A stretch of 64,000 nucleotides of DNA from NCBI RefSeq assembly GCF_002159335.1, contig NZ_NFHP01000001.1, positions 186,001 to 250,000 of the forward strand. The letters are read 5' to 3'. A program made the position numbers and the translations under genes. Of the stretch, positions 4,493-58,521 are shown one piece after another. Source of the DNA: Collinsella sp. An7. GTDB lineage: Bacteria; Actinomycetota; Coriobacteriia; Coriobacteriales; Coriobacteriaceae. The notes beneath the pieces were generated by a model. It saw only the letters and a list, made by a program, of their open reading frames with translations, was not told the DNA's origin and searched no databases. How positions within the stretch are numbered: the first letter of the stretch is position 1; the number at the start of each line of letters is the position of its first letter.

Positions 4493-6279
4493 GCGCGCCT
4501 GCCGTGCGGGGAATCGCGTCCGCGGCGTTGCTGTCCGCCGCGGCGTTCCTCGCCGGCGACCTCTTCGCCTCGTGCGCCGCCACCATGGGAGGGGACCCTG
4601 TCTCCGCCCTCTCCCAGGCGGCGCGCGCCCTCCCGGCGTTCGCCTTGTCGCGCGCCCTGGCCCCCGACCTCTCTCCGCTCCCCCTCTCCGTCGGCGTCAC
4701 CTGCGCCTGCGGCGTGTGGGCGGCGTGGGCCTGGAGGGCGGCGCGGGCCGGGAACTACCGGAGGGGCGAGGAGCACGGAAGCTCGCGGTGGGCGACGGCA
4801 GGGGAGATCTCCCGGTTCGCCGACCAGTCAGACCCCAGGCAGAACATCATCCTGACGAGGAGGTGCTCGCTCGCGATGAGCAGGCAGGACCACGACAGGC
4901 GCTTCGAGCGCACCCGCAACGTCCTCGTCATCGGGGGCCCGGGGTCGGGCAAGTCCCGCGGCTTCGTCGAGCCCAACCTCATGCAGATGAACGCGTCCTA
5001 CTTCGTCACCGACCCGAAGGGGACGGTCGCGGTGCACGTGAGGGGGCTGCTCGAGGACGGCGGCTACGAGGTCCGCGTCTTCGACACCATCGACCCCTCC
5101 CGCAGCGACCGCTACAACCCGATCTCGTACCTCAGGAGCGAGTCGGACATCATCCGGTTCGCCGACTGCCTCGTGCTCAACACCACCGACCCCAAGGCCC
5201 GCTCCAACGACCCGTTCTGGGAGGCAGCGGAGAAGCTGCTCTACACGGCGCTCGTGGCGTACCTCGTGTACCACTGCCCCGAGAGGGACCGGACGATCCC
5301 CGGGATGCTGACGCTGCTCGGGCTCGCGGAGGCGCGGGACGACGACGAGTCGTTCAGAAGCCCGCTCGACCTGCTCTTCGACGAGATAGAGACGGGGATG
5401 CGGTGCATCAGCGCCCCGACGGCGCCGGGAGGCGACCCGCGCGCCTACGACGAGGGGGGAGGGGTCCGGTGGGTGAGGGTCTCGGACCCTCGCTCCCCCG
5501 AGGAGGACTTCGCGCTCGGCAGGTACCGGGCCTTCCGAACGGCGGCGGGCAAGACCCTCAAGTCGATCATCGTCTCGTGCAACGCGCGCCTCGCGCCCCT
5601 GGCGGTCGAGGAGGCGAGGCGCCTCCTCTCGGCCGACGACCTCTCCATCGACAGGATGGGGGAAAGGGGGGAGCGCCGCGCCCTGTTCGCGGTCATGTCG
5701 GACACCAACCGCACCTACTCGTTCCTGCACGCGGTGCTCATGTGGCAGGCCCTCGACCTGCTCTGCGACCGCGCCCTGTCGGAGCACGGCGGGAGCCTGC
5801 CGACCCCGGTGAGCTTCATCCTCGACGAGTTCGCCAACATCGGCCGCATGCCCGACGTGGAGAAGTCCATGGCCGTCGTCCGCAGCCGCAACATCTCGAT
5901 CTCGCCCGTTCTGCAGTCCGTCGCGCAGCTCAAGGGTGCGTACGGGGACGACGCCCAGACGATCGTCGACTGCTGCGACACGGTTCTGTTCCTCGGGGGG
6001 AAGTCGACCGAGACGAACAAGGAGATCGCCGAGTCGGTCGGCAAGGAGACGGTGACCGCCGTGTCGGAGAGCGACACGCGCGGCGCGTCGCCGGGGTGGA
6101 GCTCGAGCAGGCAGGCGTCGGAGCGCGACCTCATCCAGGCAGCCGAGGTGGGCAGGCTCGACCGCCGCAAGGCGATCGTGCTCATCGCGGGCGCCGACCC
6201 GTTCCTCGACGAGAAGTACGACAAGACCATGCACCCAAGCTACCGGCGCATGGTGGAGCTCGGCCGCGAGGCCGAGTGA
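4489..6279 (+). CDS. VirD4/TraG-type conjugal coupling protein (T4CP)
   Basis: 596 aa. The GTG at 4489 overlaps the preceding stop. Upstream in-frame sequence is out-of-frame reading of neighbouring genes. Two N-terminal membrane segments (about 1-25 and 40-80) anchor a cytosolic ATPase. Walker A is GPGSGKS (about 150-156), followed by SYFVTDPKGT. The Walker B region is ILDEFANIGRMPDVEK (about 443-458), and PVLQSVAQL follows. T4CPs deliver the relaxase-DNA complex to the secretion channel at the membrane. It starts the core T4SS block of this ICE. Confidence 0.93.
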   Translation: MSAPAVRGIASAALLSAAAFLAGDLFASCAATMGGDPVSALSQAARALPAFALSRALAPDLSPLPLSVGVTCACGVWAAWAWRAARAGNYRRGEEHGSSRWATAGEISRFADQSDPRQNIILTRRCSLAMSRQDHDRRFERTRNVLVIGGPGSGKSRGFVEPNLMQMNASYFVTDPKGTVAVHVRGLLEDGGYEVRVFDTIDPSRSDRYNPISYLRSESDIIRFADCLVLNTTDPKARSNDPFWEAAEKLLYTALVAYLVYHCPERDRTIPGMLTLLGLAEARDDDESFRSPLDLLFDEIETGMRCISAPTAPGGDPRAYDEGGGVRWVRVSDPRSPEEDFALGRYRAFRTAAGKTLKSIIVSCNARLAPLAVEEARRLLSADDLSIDRMGERGERRALFAVMSDTNRTYSFLHAVLMWQALDLLCDRALSEHGGSLPTPVSFILDEFANIGRMPDVEKSMAVVRSRNISISPVLQSVAQLKGAYGDDAQTIVDCCDTVLFLGGKSTETNKEIAESVGKETVTAVSESDTRGASPGWSSSRQASERDLIQAAEVGRLDRRKAIVLIAGADPFLDEKYDKTMHPSYRRMVELGREAE

Positions 6280-6428
6280 CGGGGCGCGGCCGCCGCGCCC
6301 GAGGCGCCTGGGCCCGGCGGGATCCGACCCCCTCCGGGCTGCGGCCGCGCGTTCGCTAAGGAGCGCCGGGGCGCTCGACCGGATTCTATCACGCGGGGCC
6401 CCGGACCCCGCGGGAGGGGAGGAGCCGG

Positions 6429-51807: not shown

Positions 51808-53532
51808 ATGAGGATTGTCGAATTGAAGATCGAGAACTACCGGAACCTCGATGGCGTGTCGATAAAGTTTGACGAGGACGTAAACTATATCGTCGGGGAG
51901 AACAACCTCGGCAAATCGAACGTGCTCGACCTGCTCAATACAATCTTCAATCAAGCAATGCTCAGCGAAGAGGATTTCGCTGACGTCGGAAAGCGGTCAG
52001 GGGCTGTAGTCACTCTAAAGATGGACGAGGACGAGCTCGGAACGACGGGGCTCGACGTCGACCCCATGACCGGAGACACCATTACCGTGCGCGCCTTTGC
52101 CGACGACCCGGATTCCCGAATAGAATTCGAACTCGAGGGAAGCGGGGAAAAGATCCCTCCTTCACTGATGAGGTCCGTTCACATGTTCAGGTATTCGACG
52201 GCATCATTCAACAGGGGAGACCTGGCGTTTGACGGTACCCGAGGTGTCGGTAAGGTTCTCACCAAGGGCATCGCGCTTTATCTTGAAAAAGAGGGTAAGG
52301 GAGTTTCCGACTTTCTCGACGAAGAGGAGCTTGAGGGTCTTGCTACAGAGCTCAATGCAATCGTCGACGACGTCCCCATCTTGTCGTCGTATGGGGTGAA
52401 GACGGGCGTCGATGCGTCGGATGGCGGATCGCTTGGAAGCTTGGTTACCTTGCTGGATAAAAGAGGCGTCCATTTCAAAAAGGCGGGGGTAGGCCTGCAG
52501 TACCTCGCCATCGCCTCTCTCTCGATAGTCGAGAGCATTATGCGCCTCTCGCCAACACGCCTTTCAGAGAGCCTCTGCTTGGGTGCCAACGGCAAGCTTG
52601 TGCTGCATGCCGTGCTGGCATACGACGAGCCCGAGGCCCACCTCCACCCGTATATGCAGAGGCGACTCTCGAAGAGCCTGCACAGGATTTGCGAGGGGAA
52701 GGACAACAAGTTCAACGCCCTTCTTAAGGCCTATTTCGGAATCGATTCAATCAGGGCCCAGCTCATAATGGTGACGCATTCCCCAAACATTCTGGCTCGC
52801 GGCTACAAGAACATCGTGCGATTTGGACAGGGCGAAGGTTCCCCGACGGTCAAGTGCGGAACGGAGATCACCTTGCCCAGAAAGGCGGAAAAGCACCTCA
52901 TGTTGGGCTTTGATTCGATACGGGAGGCCTTTTTCGCCCGGTCTGTCCTGGCCTTTGAAGGGGAGGCGGAGTCCGGCGCCATTCCGGTCTTCGCGCGCAG
53001 CCTTGGGATGGATTTGGACGATTGTGGAGTTGTGGCAATCAGGGCCGGAGGGAAAGAAAACGTGGGACCGCTCTGCGAGCTTCTAGATGAGTTTGAGATA
53101 CCAAACTATTCCATTGTCGACAGAGACGACGGGGAGCCAATCGCTTCAGGAGATCACATAACGACAACGGATTGGGATTTCGAGTCCGAGGTCATCGACG
53201 CTCTCTTCGCCAAAGGCAGCCAGAGTACGTTCATAACATTCCTCGAATCAGAAGAGCGCCGGAAGAGGGCCGTGGTTATCAAAGGTAACAGCAGAGCTCT
53301 GAAAAAGGCATGTGCGACTTACAACGTAAGCCTAATGGATTCTGAGTACGATTTTCAGGGAGAGGAGTTCGAGGGGGAGTTCGCGGACACGCCCAGATCG
53401 CGAGCTCTCATGTATGCCTGGCTCTCGTCGAACAAAGGCGTCAGATTTGACGTTGCCCTGGCGGAGGCGCTCGGTGTCGACGGCATTCCCGCATGCTATG
53501 AGAACATCATTCGCAGGGCGGCGGGACTCTGA
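51808..53532 (+). CDS. gajA: GajA: OLD-family ATPase/TOPRIM nuclease of the Gabija system
   Basis: 574 aa. N-terminal ABC/SMC-like ATPase: IENYRNLDGVSIKF, Walker A GENNLGKS (30-37), and the signature/Walker B region VLAYDEPEAHLHPYMQRRL, then VTHSPNIL. C-terminal TOPRIM domain with LAFEGEAESGAI (about 381-392) and IVDRDDGE (about 435-442), the catalytic acids. Size equals that of known GajA. The next gene is a UvrD-like helicase, overlapped by TGATG, giving the two-gene Gabija layout. Gabija cuts or nicks invading phage DNA when nucleotide pools fall. Lower GC than neighbours. Confidence 0.9.
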   Translation: MRIVELKIENYRNLDGVSIKFDEDVNYIVGENNLGKSNVLDLLNTIFNQAMLSEEDFADVGKRSGAVVTLKMDEDELGTTGLDVDPMTGDTITVRAFADDPDSRIEFELEGSGEKIPPSLMRSVHMFRYSTASFNRGDLAFDGTRGVGKVLTKGIALYLEKEGKGVSDFLDEEELEGLATELNAIVDDVPILSSYGVKTGVDASDGGSLGSLVTLLDKRGVHFKKAGVGLQYLAIASLSIVESIMRLSPTRLSESLCLGANGKLVLHAVLAYDEPEAHLHPYMQRRLSKSLHRICEGKDNKFNALLKAYFGIDSIRAQLIMVTHSPNILARGYKNIVRFGQGEGSPTVKCGTEITLPRKAEKHLMLGFDSIREAFFARSVLAFEGEAESGAIPVFARSLGMDLDDCGVVAIRAGGKENVGPLCELLDEFEIPNYSIVDRDDGEPIASGDHITTTDWDFESEVIDALFAKGSQSTFITFLESEERRKRAVVIKGNSRALKKACATYNVSLMDSEYDFQGEEFEGEFADTPRSRALMYAWLSSNKGVRFDVALAEALGVDGIPACYENIIRRAAGL

Positions 53533-55349
53533 TGCCGGGGAGCCAAGGCGACTTGAGGGATAGCGTTAGGGTCGTAATCGAGGGGCGCTGCGGTGGGGAC
53601 GAATCGCAGCTCTTGGCGATCCTCACGCGATCGAGGAGGGTCTTCGTGGAAGCGCCGGCGGGCTATGGGAAGACGACGGCGATGACCGGACGGGCATGCT
53701 GGCTGCTGGCATCCGGTGAAGTCCCACCACCAAAAAGGGTCATGGCCCTGACCTTTAGCGTCGCCGCGGCGCGGAGGATGCGAGCGGACATGAGCGCCGC
53801 TTTGTCGGCGCTTCCCGGTCCCGCGGCACGGCGCTTCGAGGGCAGAGTCATGACAACCAACTTCCACGGCCTCGCATGGGCTCTGCTGCGAAGGTACTGG
53901 AGATCGCTCTCTCTGCCAGCCTGCGTCGACGAGCTTTCCATGCTTGATGACAACGGTTCCGTCGGCGAGCTGATTTCGCGAGGCGGCGGCATGACTTACG
54001 ATGAAAAGAATGTCGTCGACAGCTTTCTCAGCTCCATGAGACGCGGTCGAGACGAAGACTTGAGGCGCTTGATTTGCCCCTTTAATAAAGTCATCAGGGA
54101 TAGATTCGTGCCGAATGGCATCTTGCCATACTCCGCGATGATCTCCCTTGCAATCGAATTGCTTGCCCTCTGTCCGAAGCTGAGGTCCTATCTGTCGGCA
54201 GCTTATCCTGTCGTGCTTGTCGACGAGGCGCAGGACACAAATGCCCTGTGCTATATCTTCCTAAACGGTCTGCTTTCAGAAGAGTCGGGAATCTGCATGT
54301 TCGGCGATCCCATCCAGCGCGTCTACGGCTTTATTGGCGCGATGACGGGACTAAAGGAAAAGGCATCTACCGACCTACGCCTCTTGCCGCTTGAACTCGA
54401 GCATAACCATAGGTTTTCCGAAGGATCTATCATCGGAGAGCTCGGTGCCGCGATTCGCTCCAACATGAAGGGAGGCCCTGTCGGCGGAACACCCCGACTG
54501 CCCGTCCTCATCAGCTCCACGCAGCAAGGCGAAGCGGCTGCCATCGTTTCCAAAGTCGCAGAGCTTGCGCAAGGCGAGGGAGGGAGAACCGCAATTCTCG
54601 TTCGCAAACGCGGCCCCCTTGCCGACCTCATCATGGACGGGCTAGACGAAGAGGGCGTCTCGTACTTCAACGGACTCTTCTCGGATACAAGCTCGGAATT
54701 CATGGCGTTCAACGCGCTTGCCCTCTCCAAGATTGCCGATGCAGCACCTGGTGAAAAAGGCGTCAGTCGGTCCGCTGCGAACAGAATCATCGAGTCCGTT
54801 TCCGAAGAGCTCCTTTCCGGCTCCAAGGGATTCGAGTACGGGCGGTCCTACGCCATGCTTCTCGGAGCGTTGAGGAAACACCTTGCGGCAGATTGCGCGG
54901 CGATGAGCCCTTCGGAGCGGCGCGACTATATCTTGAGCATCTTCTCCGAGGGCTCCCTGCGGCGCTTCTCGGATTACCTCGATGCCGGCGTCTCGATGAT
55001 GACCGTTCATTCCGCCAAGGGGCTCGAGTGGGACAGCGTTTTCATCCCGGGCGTCACGCGTTTAGATTGGCCCGGAGGAATGTGCATTCAGTGCGACAGG
55101 GCTGGTATGTGCTCACGTTCCGCGCAAAGTTGCCGGATTGTCGATATGAGGAGAATGCCAGACGGGCTTATCGAAGAAATCGGCCTGCTGTACGTCGGCG
55201 TCACTCGCGCTCGAAAGGCGGTGTACGTCTCCGCCTCGATGCAACGCAGGACAAAATCCGGGGACTATCAGCCCACCTGTCCCTCTTGTCTGATGTCTCT
55301 TCCGGGTATTGCGCCTGTGAGCTGGGCGGCGATGGATGCGGAGAGCTGA
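53532..55349 (+). CDS. gajB: GajB: UvrD/Rep-like helicase of the Gabija system
   Basis: 605 aa. Walker A APAGYGKTTA (about 40-49), ALTFSVAAARRMR, Walker B VVLVDEAQDTNA (about 226-237), FGDPIQRVYGF, LELEHNHRF and MTVHSAKGLEWDSVFIPG (about 490) are motifs I-V of SF1A helicases. A Cys cluster (CIQCDRAGMC, C) near 518-535 is an extra zinc site. Somewhat longer than the prototype GajB (about 490-500 aa). It senses DNA ends and activates GajA. Confidence 0.9.
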   Translation: MPGSQGDLRDSVRVVIEGRCGGDESQLLAILTRSRRVFVEAPAGYGKTTAMTGRACWLLASGEVPPPKRVMALTFSVAAARRMRADMSAALSALPGPAARRFEGRVMTTNFHGLAWALLRRYWRSLSLPACVDELSMLDDNGSVGELISRGGGMTYDEKNVVDSFLSSMRRGRDEDLRRLICPFNKVIRDRFVPNGILPYSAMISLAIELLALCPKLRSYLSAAYPVVLVDEAQDTNALCYIFLNGLLSEESGICMFGDPIQRVYGFIGAMTGLKEKASTDLRLLPLELEHNHRFSEGSIIGELGAAIRSNMKGGPVGGTPRLPVLISSTQQGEAAAIVSKVAELAQGEGGRTAILVRKRGPLADLIMDGLDEEGVSYFNGLFSDTSSEFMAFNALALSKIADAAPGEKGVSRSAANRIIESVSEELLSGSKGFEYGRSYAMLLGALRKHLAADCAAMSPSERRDYILSIFSEGSLRRFSDYLDAGVSMMTVHSAKGLEWDSVFIPGVTRLDWPGGMCIQCDRAGMCSRSAQSCRIVDMRRMPDGLIEEIGLLYVGVTRARKAVYVSASMQRRTKSGDYQPTCPSCLMSLPGIAPVSWAAMDAES

Positions 55350-55374: not shown

Positions 55375-56520
55375 CTATGGGAGCGAGAGCCGGCCGGCCG
55401 CCCTGTCCATGACCTCGCTGAGCATGGCTAGGCCGTTCTTCAGCTCGCCCTGCTTGGAGAAGTAGTCCCTGTGCGCCGTGAATCGCCTGCGCAGGGCTCG
55501 GAGCTTCTCCGCGGCGTCCCCTCTCGCGTCCTCGCTCTTGACCAGGTGCATGTAGCAGAGGGCGAGGGCGGTGAAGTCGTGGATGATGGGCGCCCTCTTG
55601 GTGAGCGACACGAGCTCGCGGTCGATTCCCAGCTCCTCGACCGCCATCCTCGAGATGGAGCCGACAGGCTTCCTCAGCTTCGAGCTGAGCGTGCTGAGCA
55701 TGTTCCCGTTGTGGGCGGCGGCGTTCCTCAGCGCCTTCGTCGGGAAGAGCAGGCCCTTTACCTCCTCCTCGTCCTTCATCGCTCGCCGCTCGAAGACGTA
55801 GTACTTGTAGAGCGAGATGACGCCCCCGAAGGACGCGAGCTCGAGGTAGCTCCAGACCGCCATGTGCCCGGGGTCCCCGTACTTCTCGACGAGCCCACGG
55901 GTGTAGGAGGACCCGCCCAGCCCGGCAAGGCTCCTCTCGGTGTGGTCGGGGTCTATCCCGCCGAGCGCGTCCGATGCCAGGTGCAGCAGGGAGGCGAGGG
56001 CGGAGATGACGGATCTGGCGTCCGATGTCGCCAGGTCTCCGGACAGGCTTCTGACCACCGGGGCCTTCGACCGAATGGAGCAAAGGTCGACCCTCTTCTC
56101 GAGCACCCTGACCTTCCTCTCGCGCTCGGAGTCGAAGAAGGACGCCATGAGCTCGTAGGGGTCGTCTCCCGCGTCCATGATCATCCTGTTGAGCTCGACC
56201 TTCATGTAGTGCTCGATGTCGAGCGTGAGGGAGAGGACCGTCTCGCGGAGGTGGTGGTCGAGCCTCGTGAGCTCGGCGAGGTGGGCGAAATCGAGGTTGA
56301 TGTAGGAGCCGAAGCGCTCCGAGCCGGGGTTGGTGTAGCGGGAGAAGCACTTCGCGAACGCCTTCACCTTGAAGAAGAAGTTGCTCTCCCGCAGGAATCG
56401 CTCGGCCTCCCGCTCGTCCGTCAGCTCGAAGCGGACCCCTCGCTCCTTGAGGTGGCGGACCTGCTGGGCGGCGTCGATGAGCGGCCGTTCCTTTGTTGTC
56501 GCGGTGCCGGGATCTTCCAT
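55375..56520 (-). CDS. Abi_2 (AbiD/AbiF) family abortive-infection HEPN protein
   Basis: 381 aa. QQVRHLKERGVRFELTDEREAERFLRESNFF and FGSYINLDFAHLAELTRLDHHLRETVLSLTLDIEHYMKVELN are the classical Abi_2 blocks (about 18-125). The HEPN ribonuclease motif is LRNAAAHNGNML (R about 265, H about 270). Convergent to Gabija, forming a defence pair. In the family, AbiF-like toxins are checked by a short structured RNA encoded just upstream; such an RNA with a terminator is visible at 56541-56600. The 3' end meets GajB within 26 bp. Confidence 0.88.
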   Translation of the reverse strand: MEDPGTATTKERPLIDAAQQVRHLKERGVRFELTDEREAERFLRESNFFFKVKAFAKCFSRYTNPGSERFGSYINLDFAHLAELTRLDHHLRETVLSLTLDIEHYMKVELNRMIMDAGDDPYELMASFFDSERERKVRVLEKRVDLCSIRSKAPVVRSLSGDLATSDARSVISALASLLHLASDALGGIDPDHTERSLAGLGGSSYTRGLVEKYGDPGHMAVWSYLELASFGGVISLYKYYVFERRAMKDEEEVKGLLFPTKALRNAAAHNGNMLSTLSSKLRKPVGSISRMAVEELGIDRELVSLTKRAPIIHDFTALALCYMHLVKSEDARGDAAEKLRALRRRFTAHRDYFSKQGELKNGLAMLSEVMDRAAGRLSLP

Positions 56521-56540
56521 ATCGGCTCCAAAAGATAAGA

Positions 56541-56600
56541 AAAATGCGGCTGAAGGTACAGGTACCCGCAGCCGCTAAAAGCCCTAGGGCTTTTCACAAT
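56541..56600 (-). ncRNA. Candidate abiF-type RNA (RNA antitoxin) with terminator
   Basis: Read on the minus strand: -10 tatact (56607-56612), then aaaagccctagggctttt (56577-56594, a perfect palindrome), then gcggctg (56569-56575) paired with cagccgc (56546-56552) around an inner ggtac/gtacc stem, then atttttct. The Abi gene starts 20 bases later. A short, structured transcript closed by an intrinsic terminator directly before the toxin is the layout of abiF RNA and type III toxin-antitoxin loci. No -35 box is clear. Confidence 0.55.
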
Positions 56601-56741
56601 GACTGAAGTATACCCGATTGAGGCGAACGGGGGAAGCGCTCGGGAAGTGTGGGCCATCCATCGGAAGGGCTCCATAATCTCGGCACAGAGGGTCTGCGCG
56701 CGGCGGAGGCGCTGGCGTCGACTGGGGCGGGGAACGTGTCC

Positions 56742-57110
56742 TCACCTCCGGGACATGCCGAAGATGAGGGCGTCCTCCCGCTCGACGTCCGAGGGCTCCG
56801 CCTCGCCGCGCATGGCGGAGAACTCCCGCGCGAGGAAGTCGACCGTCCAGGCGAGCCCCTCGTCGACCTCGTCGGCGGACCGTATGCGCCTGAGCTCCCG
56901 GTACACGCGCGCCATCTCGTCCCGGAGCATCTTGTAGACGCGCACGTCGGGCTTGACGACGACCTCCTCCTCGAGGGCTCGCTTGTAAAGGTAGTCCTGC
57001 TTGGTCATGCCCGAGGCGCGCGCCATGAGGTCGATGCGCCTCGCCTGCTCGGGCGTGACGCGGAAGCCGATGGTGACGCTCCTCTCGCGGGCGGAGTTGG
57101 GGCAGGGCAT
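56742..57110 (-). CDS. Ribbon-helix-helix/MobC-like protein beside the integrase
   Basis: 122 aa. SARERSVTIGFRVTPEQARRIDLMARASGMTKQDYLYKRA is an RHH/MobC-type DNA-binding start (about 6-46); the rest is helical and acidic. Stop and start are 1 bp from the integrase gene, in the same direction. It could help recombination or be a second relaxosome protein. The former is favoured by position. Confidence 0.65.
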   Translation of the reverse strand: MPCPNSARERSVTIGFRVTPEQARRIDLMARASGMTKQDYLYKRALEEEVVVKPDVRVYKMLRDEMARVYRELRRIRSADEVDEGLAWTVDFLAREFSAMRGEAEPSDVEREDALIFGMSRR

Positions 57111-57111
57111 G

Positions 57112-58185
57112 TCAGTTCTCCCTTCTCGCCCCGTCCAGGGCGCGGGCCATGTCGGCCTGGACGCTGGGGAACAGGTGGGCGTAGCGGTAGGTGATGTCGG
57201 CCGCCTCGTGGCCCATGCGGTCCGCGATGGCGAGCGCGGTGAAGCCCATGTCGATGAGCAGCGACACGTGGCTGTGCCTGAGGTCGTGGATGCGGATGGG
57301 CTCGAGGCCGGCCGCCTTGCTCCCGCGCGCCATCTCGTGGCTGAGGAAGTACTTGGTCACGGGGAAGATCCGCTCGTCGGGGTCGAGGCCGCGCCCGGAG
57401 AGGAACGCCTCCATCTCCTCCGCGTAGAAGTGCGGCATGGCGATGACGCGCTTCGACTTCGGGGTCTTCGGGTCGGTGAGGACGTCCTGCCCGTCGATGC
57501 GCTGGTAGGACTCCGCGACGGTGAGGGTCCCCCGCTCGAAGTCGAACCTCCGCGGCTTCAGGGCGAGCAGCTCCCCCTCGCGCACGCCGCACCAGTAGAG
57601 CGTCTCGAAGGCGTGGAAGGAGAGCGGCTTGTCCATGATCTCGTCCGAGAACCTGAGGTACTGGTCCTTGGTCCAGAACCTCATCTCGCCGGCGGACTTC
57701 GAGCCCATGGATTCGGCCCTGCGGCACGGGTTCGACGAGAGGCCGTAGAAGCGCACGGCGTGGTTGAAGAGTGCGCAGAGCTGGTTGTTGACGGTCTTGA
57801 GGTAGGTCGCGGAGAACCCGCCCCCGCTCGGCTTCTCGAGGGCCATCAGCTCGTTCTGCCACCTCACGATGTCGACCGGGGCGATCTGGTTCATGCGCTT
57901 CTCGCCCAGGTAGGGGAGGATGCGCTTCGTGATGATGGACTCCTTGGTCTTCCAGGTGTTCAGGCGCAGGCGCGGCCCCATGTCCTTCTTGTAGAGCTCG
58001 AGGAAGTCGACGAGCTTCATGTCCATGTCGCCCGCCTGCACGGCGTAGAAGTCGCGCTCCCACGAGAGCGCCTCGGGCTTGGTCTTGAAGCCCCGCTTCA
58101 CCTTGTGGGCGCGCTTGCCGTCGTAGGTCTTGTACCAGGCCTGGACGTACCAGGTGCCGTTCCGCTTATCCCTTGTCACCGACAT
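57112..58185 (-). CDS. int: Tyrosine recombinase (ICE integrase)
   Basis: 357 aa from the ATG at 58185; it overlaps the xis gene by 20 bp. An AP2-like arm-binding N-terminus (RDKRNGTWYVQAWYKTYDGK), core-binding domain (about 65-170), and catalytic domain with CGVREGELLAL (R about 202), HDLRHSH (H about 299, R about 302), MGHEAADITYRYAHL (H, and nucleophile Tyr about 333). It catalyses insertion at the guaA tail and, with Xis, excision. Arm sites at 904-940 and 59153-59171. Confidence 0.95.
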   Translation of the reverse strand: MSVTRDKRNGTWYVQAWYKTYDGKRAHKVKRGFKTKPEALSWERDFYAVQAGDMDMKLVDFLELYKKDMGPRLRLNTWKTKESIITKRILPYLGEKRMNQIAPVDIVRWQNELMALEKPSGGGFSATYLKTVNNQLCALFNHAVRFYGLSSNPCRRAESMGSKSAGEMRFWTKDQYLRFSDEIMDKPLSFHAFETLYWCGVREGELLALKPRRFDFERGTLTVAESYQRIDGQDVLTDPKTPKSKRVIAMPHFYAEEMEAFLSGRGLDPDERIFPVTKYFLSHEMARGSKAAGLEPIRIHDLRHSHVSLLIDMGFTALAIADRMGHEAADITYRYAHLFPSVQADMARALDGARREN

Positions 58186-58369
58186 CGGAATCCCCCTCGC
58201 CCTCGAACAGGCGCTTCTCGAAGTACGCGCGGCTGACCCGCCCGGGCACGGTGATGCACCCCCGCTCCTCCATCTCCTTGTTGAGCCGGCGGATGAGCTT
58301 GTAGGCGTAGGCGCGCGACATGCCGAGGGCCTCGGCGACCTCGTCCGCGCCGATGGTTCTGCTCTCCAT
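58166..58369 (-). CDS. xis: Excisionase-like HTH protein
   Basis: 67 aa from the ATG at 58369 (ggagagag upstream); a GTG at 58393 lies inside a palindrome and is unlikely. RTIGADEVAEALGMSRAYAYKLIRRLNKEM is an excisionase-type HTH, then a wing (CITVPGRVSRAYFEKRLF). Placed directly before the integrase in the same transcript, as Xis usually is. Confidence 0.8.
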   Translation of the reverse strand: MESRTIGADEVAEALGMSRAYAYKLIRRLNKEMEERGCITVPGRVSRAYFEKRLFEGEGDSDVGDKG

Positions 58370-58386
58370 CTCTCTCCAATCTCGCG

Positions 58387-58408
58387 ACAGCACGAAAACG
58401 TGCTGTCA
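58387..58408. promoter_or_regulatory. Palindromic operator before xis-int
   Basis: gacagcac-N6-gtgctgtc, a perfect 8-bp-armed inverted repeat, with a further cagcacgaaa at 58422-58431. It lies between the divergent xre and xis genes. Probably the site through which the XRE regulator silences integrase/Xis. Confidence 0.6.
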
Positions 58409-58521
58409 GTTCGGATACTAGCAGCACGAAATCGAACGGTCAACATGACAATCCTTCATATCCTGATGCGTTATCCTGAGATAAGCAGGTACACCAGATA
58501 TACGAGAGAGACAGGGGAGAC

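Follow-up and report, generated by a model that had tools for sequence, protein, structure and literature searches.

The closest described counterpart of the locus analysed here is the RCd22/AbiFCd pair of C. difficile prophages, in which a structured RNA with its own promoter and an intrinsic terminator precede the gene of an Abi_2 HEPN toxin. AbiFCd is toxic, and its upstream RNA neutralises it both in cis and in trans; repression in cis by RCd22 has been shown to proceed through early termination, and the catalytic residues of the toxin are R202 and H207 (PMC12373285). RCd22 contains two RF03085 motifs and a separate terminator in ~100-130 nt. The RF03085 abiF RNA, a small hairpin RNA, precedes Abi_2 genes; its asymmetric hairpin, CCCGCCAAGC...GCUCAAAUCGGCGGG, has a CAAAUC bulge. 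PbAbiF-AbiFr (PDB 8VZ6; Zilberzwige-Tal et al., as cited in PMC12373285 and PMC12737573) is reported to be a HEPN RNase bound by its associated ncRNA. AbiF has also been proposed as the ancestor of Cas13 (PMC12737573).

The window, i.e. the whole stretch of 64,000 nucleotides that was analysed, harbours on its minus strand an abi gene (55375-56520, ATG at 56520) that codes for an Abi_2/AbiD-like HEPN protein of 381 aa, a candidate RNase toxin. A GGAG sequence at 56526-56529 is its likely ribosome binding site. Upstream, on the same strand, lies a structured RNA of 66 positions (56537-56602, covariance model R1), with a predicted transcript of about 60-66 nt that ends 16 nt before the gene. It is preceded by a TATACT -10 box (56607-56612). 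Hairpin 1 (56577-56594) is the palindrome AAAAGCCCTAGGGCTTTT, with an A-rich stem. Hairpin 2 (56546-56575; GCGGCTG-C-GGGTA-CCTG-TACCT-T-CAGCCGC on the minus strand) has a 7-bp outer stem, a C.U mismatch, a 5-bp inner stem and a CCUG loop, and is followed by the U-tract ATTTTTCTT (56537-56545), which is conserved in A3. The initial annotation had listed a TATACT box, an 18-bp palindrome, a second hairpin and a U-rich tail on this strand, and all of them are present at 56612-56537. The palindrome is indeed perfect over 18 bp, but when folded it forms a stem of 7 bp around a loop of 4 nt. Likewise, the terminator placed between the promoter and the toxin gene is there by sequence and fold, but it is hairpin 2 itself rather than a separate element. 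Together with the U-tract, hairpin 2 thus reads as an intrinsic terminator, and it is also a candidate protein-binding element. The TATACT hexamer and its spacing are the same across the window clade. Nevertheless, the window promoter appears weak by consensus, with no clear -35 box, since its best two-box score has 4 mismatches (shuffle P 0.09).

The Abi protein matches PF07751 (Abi_2) with 51.9 bits against a curated cut-off of 25.6 (E 1.5e-13), and PADLOC assigns it to AbiD (E 3.5e-16). It carries the HEPN motif R(N/H/D)xxxH, as RNAAAH throughout its clade, and the R, N, A and H of the motif do not vary in a set of 19 Abi proteins that includes AbiF of phiC2. Residues R265 and H270 align with R202 and H207 of AbiFCd, and hhalign related the window clade to AbiFCd-type proteins with a probability of 96.8% (E 2.7e-10). 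The comparison with PbAbiF was made via the protein only: a mixed Abi profile that included the window clade matched 8VZ6 with E 3.8e-35, whereas the profile of the window clade alone found no match in the PDB, 8VZ6 included. An AlphaFold model of the window Abi had a pLDDT of 63; the PDB fold search started from it was meaningless and was discarded.

The locus thus shares with RCd22/AbiFCd an Abi_2 HEPN toxin with conserved catalytic R and H, an upstream structured RNA with its own promoter, and an intrinsic terminator before the toxin gene. The RNAs themselves differ, as that of the window is made of two dissimilar hairpins in about 60-66 nt, the second of which is the terminator. The check that had been proposed, a search with the covariance model of the abiF RNA, was negative: RF03085 found no match in 56300-56800 at E up to 10, while the phiC2 positive control scored 37.6 bits. 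It found none in 40 relatives either, a search that was also silent in every control genome. The window RNA, with two hairpins and no CAAAUC bulge, thus belongs to a different class from RF03085, and its binding to Abi cannot be deduced from RNA homology. Nothing convincing emerged when other Abi_2 genes of Coriobacteriales were inspected for nearby GCTCAAA motifs like those of RF03085, and for 20 related loci not one Rfam family gave a match. The RNA family is absent from Rfam. The order of RNA, terminator and RNase toxin, as judged from sequence and fold, is also that of the type III systems (ToxIN, AbiQ, TenpIN, CptIN), in which an RNA gene adjoins the toxin gene with an intrinsic terminator in between. 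However, tandem repeats make up the classical type III antitoxins, whereas the window has a single copy of two unlike hairpins, and tandem copies, two in number, occur only at 18 loci of a sister clade. The toxins of type III systems have a fold unrelated to that of Abi. The AbiF RNA covariance models of Zilberzwige-Tal et al., named AbiF5_iter3.CM and diverse_rna_xinsi.CM (PMC12804078), may already cover the family.

The 72-nt segment has a folding energy of -28.8 kcal/mol, compared with -16.5 +/- 2.6 after dinucleotide shuffling (z -4.6; 0/200 shuffles as good). As the same 66 nt precede related abi genes and show compensatory changes there, the segment is more than a chance structure. Among 29 distinct sequences, 99.1% of the cells are paired, compared with 92.6% in shuffles and 39-53% for slid structures. 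Double changes were found in 51 cells, compared with 16.2 +/- 4.6 after shuffling (0/500), and affect eight pairs, a number reached by 14/500 shuffles; these counts come from an alignment fitted to the structure and are therefore biased in its favour. The MAFFT-only alignment A1 yields seven pairs with double changes. Both hairpins contribute, with double changes in 3/7 pairs of hairpin 1 (98.5% of cells paired) and in 5/12 pairs of hairpin 2 (99.4%). Covariation, whose absence had been named as grounds for giving up the antitoxin proposal, was thus searched for and found. Conservation is not confined to the stems: it covers hairpin 1, linker and loop, and among unpaired positions the UGUGAA 5' end and the CCUG loop are conserved beyond the stems. 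Between the window and locus L014, identity is 73% for the RNA, 55% for the nucleotides of the ORF and 22-30% upstream. The RNA is conserved above the gene and far above the flanks, and beyond the -10 box distant loci are close to random in sequence similarity.

A protein search of 84,980 species genomes collected 17 loci, all from Coriobacteria, 16 of which have the same RNA just 5' of abi. At the last one (L002) the RNA is intact (1340-1405) but located ~1.4 kb away, and on inspection the sequence directly 5' of abi reads like a transposase. R1, which was built on nine sequences, recovers the left-out locus L017 (33% identical) at 61.7 bits; it scores the window RNA, which is part of the model, at 96.8 bits. 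In 299 Coriobacteriales genomes, R1 detected 34 copies that score 53 bits or more, spread over 33 genomes. In the same genomes, A4, a protein profile of the window Abi clade, identified 12 full-length members, one with a stop codon and one frameshifted, and the RNA directly precedes abi in all 12. Truncated, frameshifted or fused abi copies also retain it (G264, G006, G009, G200, G041, G234). In intact loci, the distance from the terminator to the abi start codon is constant at 15-24 nt. Two deeper relatives (L118, L119) have the same upstream plan in diverged sequence. Viral contigs, scanned both for the RNA pattern and for the protein, contained no relatives, plasmid and phage records yielded only distant Abi proteins (<= 38% identity), and the collection of papers that was searched contained none on abortive infection, toxin-antitoxin systems and noncoding RNA in Coriobacteria.

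In a sister clade of Abi proteins of about 310-340 aa, a two-hairpin RNA is found immediately 3' of the abi stop codon. Weak R1/R2 matches (15-24 bits) at gene ends had been considered chance terminators, an explanation discarded when inspection revealed this downstream RNA class. A covariance model of seven downstream RNAs (R3), with no upstream RNA included, has matches in 86 of the 299 genomes. Of the 89 Abi matches listed, 59 have an R3 RNA nearby, always on the same strand and at the 3' end of the gene, starting ~870-1080 nt past the point where the matched N-terminus begins; two R3 RNAs lie in tandem at 18 of these loci. Near the remaining 30 there is no R3 match, but G024:C2 and G290:C51 carry the upstream type, and L126, L129, L133 and others carry a downstream RNA that was seen only on inspection. 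No R2 or R3 matches were detected outside Coriobacteriales in 296 genomes sampled over the phylum. No two-hairpin RNA was seen 3' of canonical Abi_2 genes (L050-L079, L088, L089); the last two are further Abi_2 genes of the same genome as the window (G000), on contigs C13 and C12, respectively, with no R3-type RNA directly 3'.

The downstream RNAs usually seem to have a near-consensus sigma-70 promoter within the 3' end of abi. Of 20 unlike sequences upstream of R3-type RNAs, 17 contain a TTGACA-N16-18-NATAAT-like promoter with <= 3 mismatches, ending 10-14 nt 5' of hairpin 1; the exceptions are the second tandem copy of L136, the lone copy of L138, and L133, which has a -10 box only. Since the window RNA is matched in register by R3 (56539-56599, 31.6 bits, E 1.8e-4, a score that comes in part from the shared plan of hairpin, hairpin and U-tract) although no upstream RNA went into the model, the two RNA classes are probably related. 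A maximum-likelihood tree places the clade with upstream RNAs as sister to the one with downstream RNAs (union 100/100), apart from canonical AbiF. Two near-identical relatives of the window abi (L003, L004) have both the upstream RNA and a downstream-type RNA, the latter at about 6190-6290 (+) with a TTGACA-containing promoter-like sequence. Unlike these two, the window abi has no second, downstream-type RNA.

The RNA also occurs away from abi genes. Fourteen R1 copies lack a recognisable Abi within about 5 kb per side, or less at contig ends, and a fifteenth (G258) adjoins a 22-codon abi remnant. Orphan R1 copies retain a -10-like hexamer at the same spacing. Five of them (G073, G250, G079, G081, G131) are convergent to a gene for an ATPase of 421-422 aa, 74-204 nt away; two of these ATPases are typed as AAA_14/DUF4143, and the other three share their N-terminal sequence. 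The outer neighbours differ among the loci with orphan RNA and ATPase (L090, L091, L093, L095, L101). In G202 (L092), R1 and R3 RNAs, both of which have a -10-like box, lie in tandem at 4814-4990 (-), without an Abi gene within about 4.5 kb of them. At L105 (5705-7218), SocA/Panacea antitoxin-like and RelA/SpoT-domain genes lie beside an RNA that keeps only an abi remnant. The decay of toxins at several loci and the 14 copies without recognisable Abi indicate that the RNA may have a further job.

We propose, with a probability of about 0.72, that the segment encodes a small RNA that acts as antitoxin to the neighbouring Abi_2 (AbiD/AbiF) HEPN RNase. The candidate RNA antitoxin of the initial annotation is thus supported, at the sequence level, by covariation, the HEPN RNxxxH motif and the RCd22/AbiFCd-like layout. 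One alternative is that the RNA itself is functionless and that the hairpins form a leader-terminator acting in cis only, to limit or regulate read-through into abi. In agreement with this, a terminator separates the promoter from abi and keeps a constant distance of 15-24 nt to the start codon in intact loci, and RCd22 represses in cis by early termination. Hairpin 2 and the U-tract probably do limit read-through into abi as well. However, the sister clade has its RNA 3' of abi with a separate promoter, orphan copies exist, and a terminator would not need all the conservation seen in hairpin 1, linker and loop, so that we regard attenuation as the sole function as unlikely. Still less can be said for plain transcription termination, by two hairpins that happen to lie beside a gene and have no specific partner. 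Hairpin 2 with its U-tract is a textbook intrinsic terminator, and the downstream copies lie on the abi strand as expected of gene terminators, but 66 nt conserved above the ORF, covariation in both hairpins, promoters directly 5' of the RNA, tandem duplicates at 18 loci and a clade-specific presence, with canonical Abi_2 genes lacking a downstream RNA, make this very improbable.

The RNA might alternatively license or direct Abi as a guide or sensor, in the manner of crRNA and Cas13, with for instance the loop sensing a phage product. The proposed ancestry of Cas13 and the conservation of the unpaired UGUGAA 5' end and CCUG loop beyond the stems would be in line with such a role; nevertheless, the RNA has no variable, spacer-like segment, and the characterised AbiF RNA neutralises its toxin. 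We consider this option improbable, slightly more so than pure attenuation. A separate, trans-acting RNA gene, serving as antitoxin as in AbiF/RCd22, fits best, because 5' attenuation is not open to an RNA that lies downstream of the gene or stands alone, and because a plain terminator needs neither two covarying hairpins nor a promoter. The downstream copies with their own promoters and the orphans argue for trans action more strongly than the upstream layout does. For this antitoxin, RNA polymerase would start 6-8 nt past TATACT and mostly stop at the U-tract, yielding an abundant RNA of about 60-66 nt, while occasional read-through would give the abi mRNA. The folded RNA would bind the Abi dimer and block its RNase site; if it were lost or outcompeted, e.g. 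on phage infection, the toxin would be freed and the cell arrested.

A complete Gabija pair, gajA (574 aa, PADLOC E 8.5e-160) and gajB (605 aa, E 1.7e-131), lies at 51808-55349 (+), convergent to abi. Directly 5' of the RNA, 56742-58446 (-) codes for a NikA-like mobilisation protein and a tyrosine integrase. This neighbourhood suggests that the RNA and abi are defence cargo of an integrative element.

Cas13 has been proposed to descend from AbiF-type toxins and their RNAs, yet RF03085, the sole Rfam family for such RNAs, does not reach a large clade found in common gut Coriobacteria. A partner RNA as compact as ~65 nt, with natural upstream, downstream, tandem and orphan arrangements, would make it possible to test directly for trans action, for the RNA features that Abi reads and for the way in which one antidote becomes an array. 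Tentatively, Coriobacteriales might host a lineage of trans-acting RNAs for HEPN Abi toxins that has switched sides of the gene, come to stand behind a sigma-70 promoter of its own, given rise to tandem duplicates and spread in the form of toxin-free orphans and arrays, as in G202, although we hold this scenario to be rather doubtful. If it is true, the orphans may serve as stand-alone antidotes when Abi toxins come in, or control other genes. The arrays would then offer a natural counterpart to the formation of arrays that has been proposed en route to Cas13 crRNAs.
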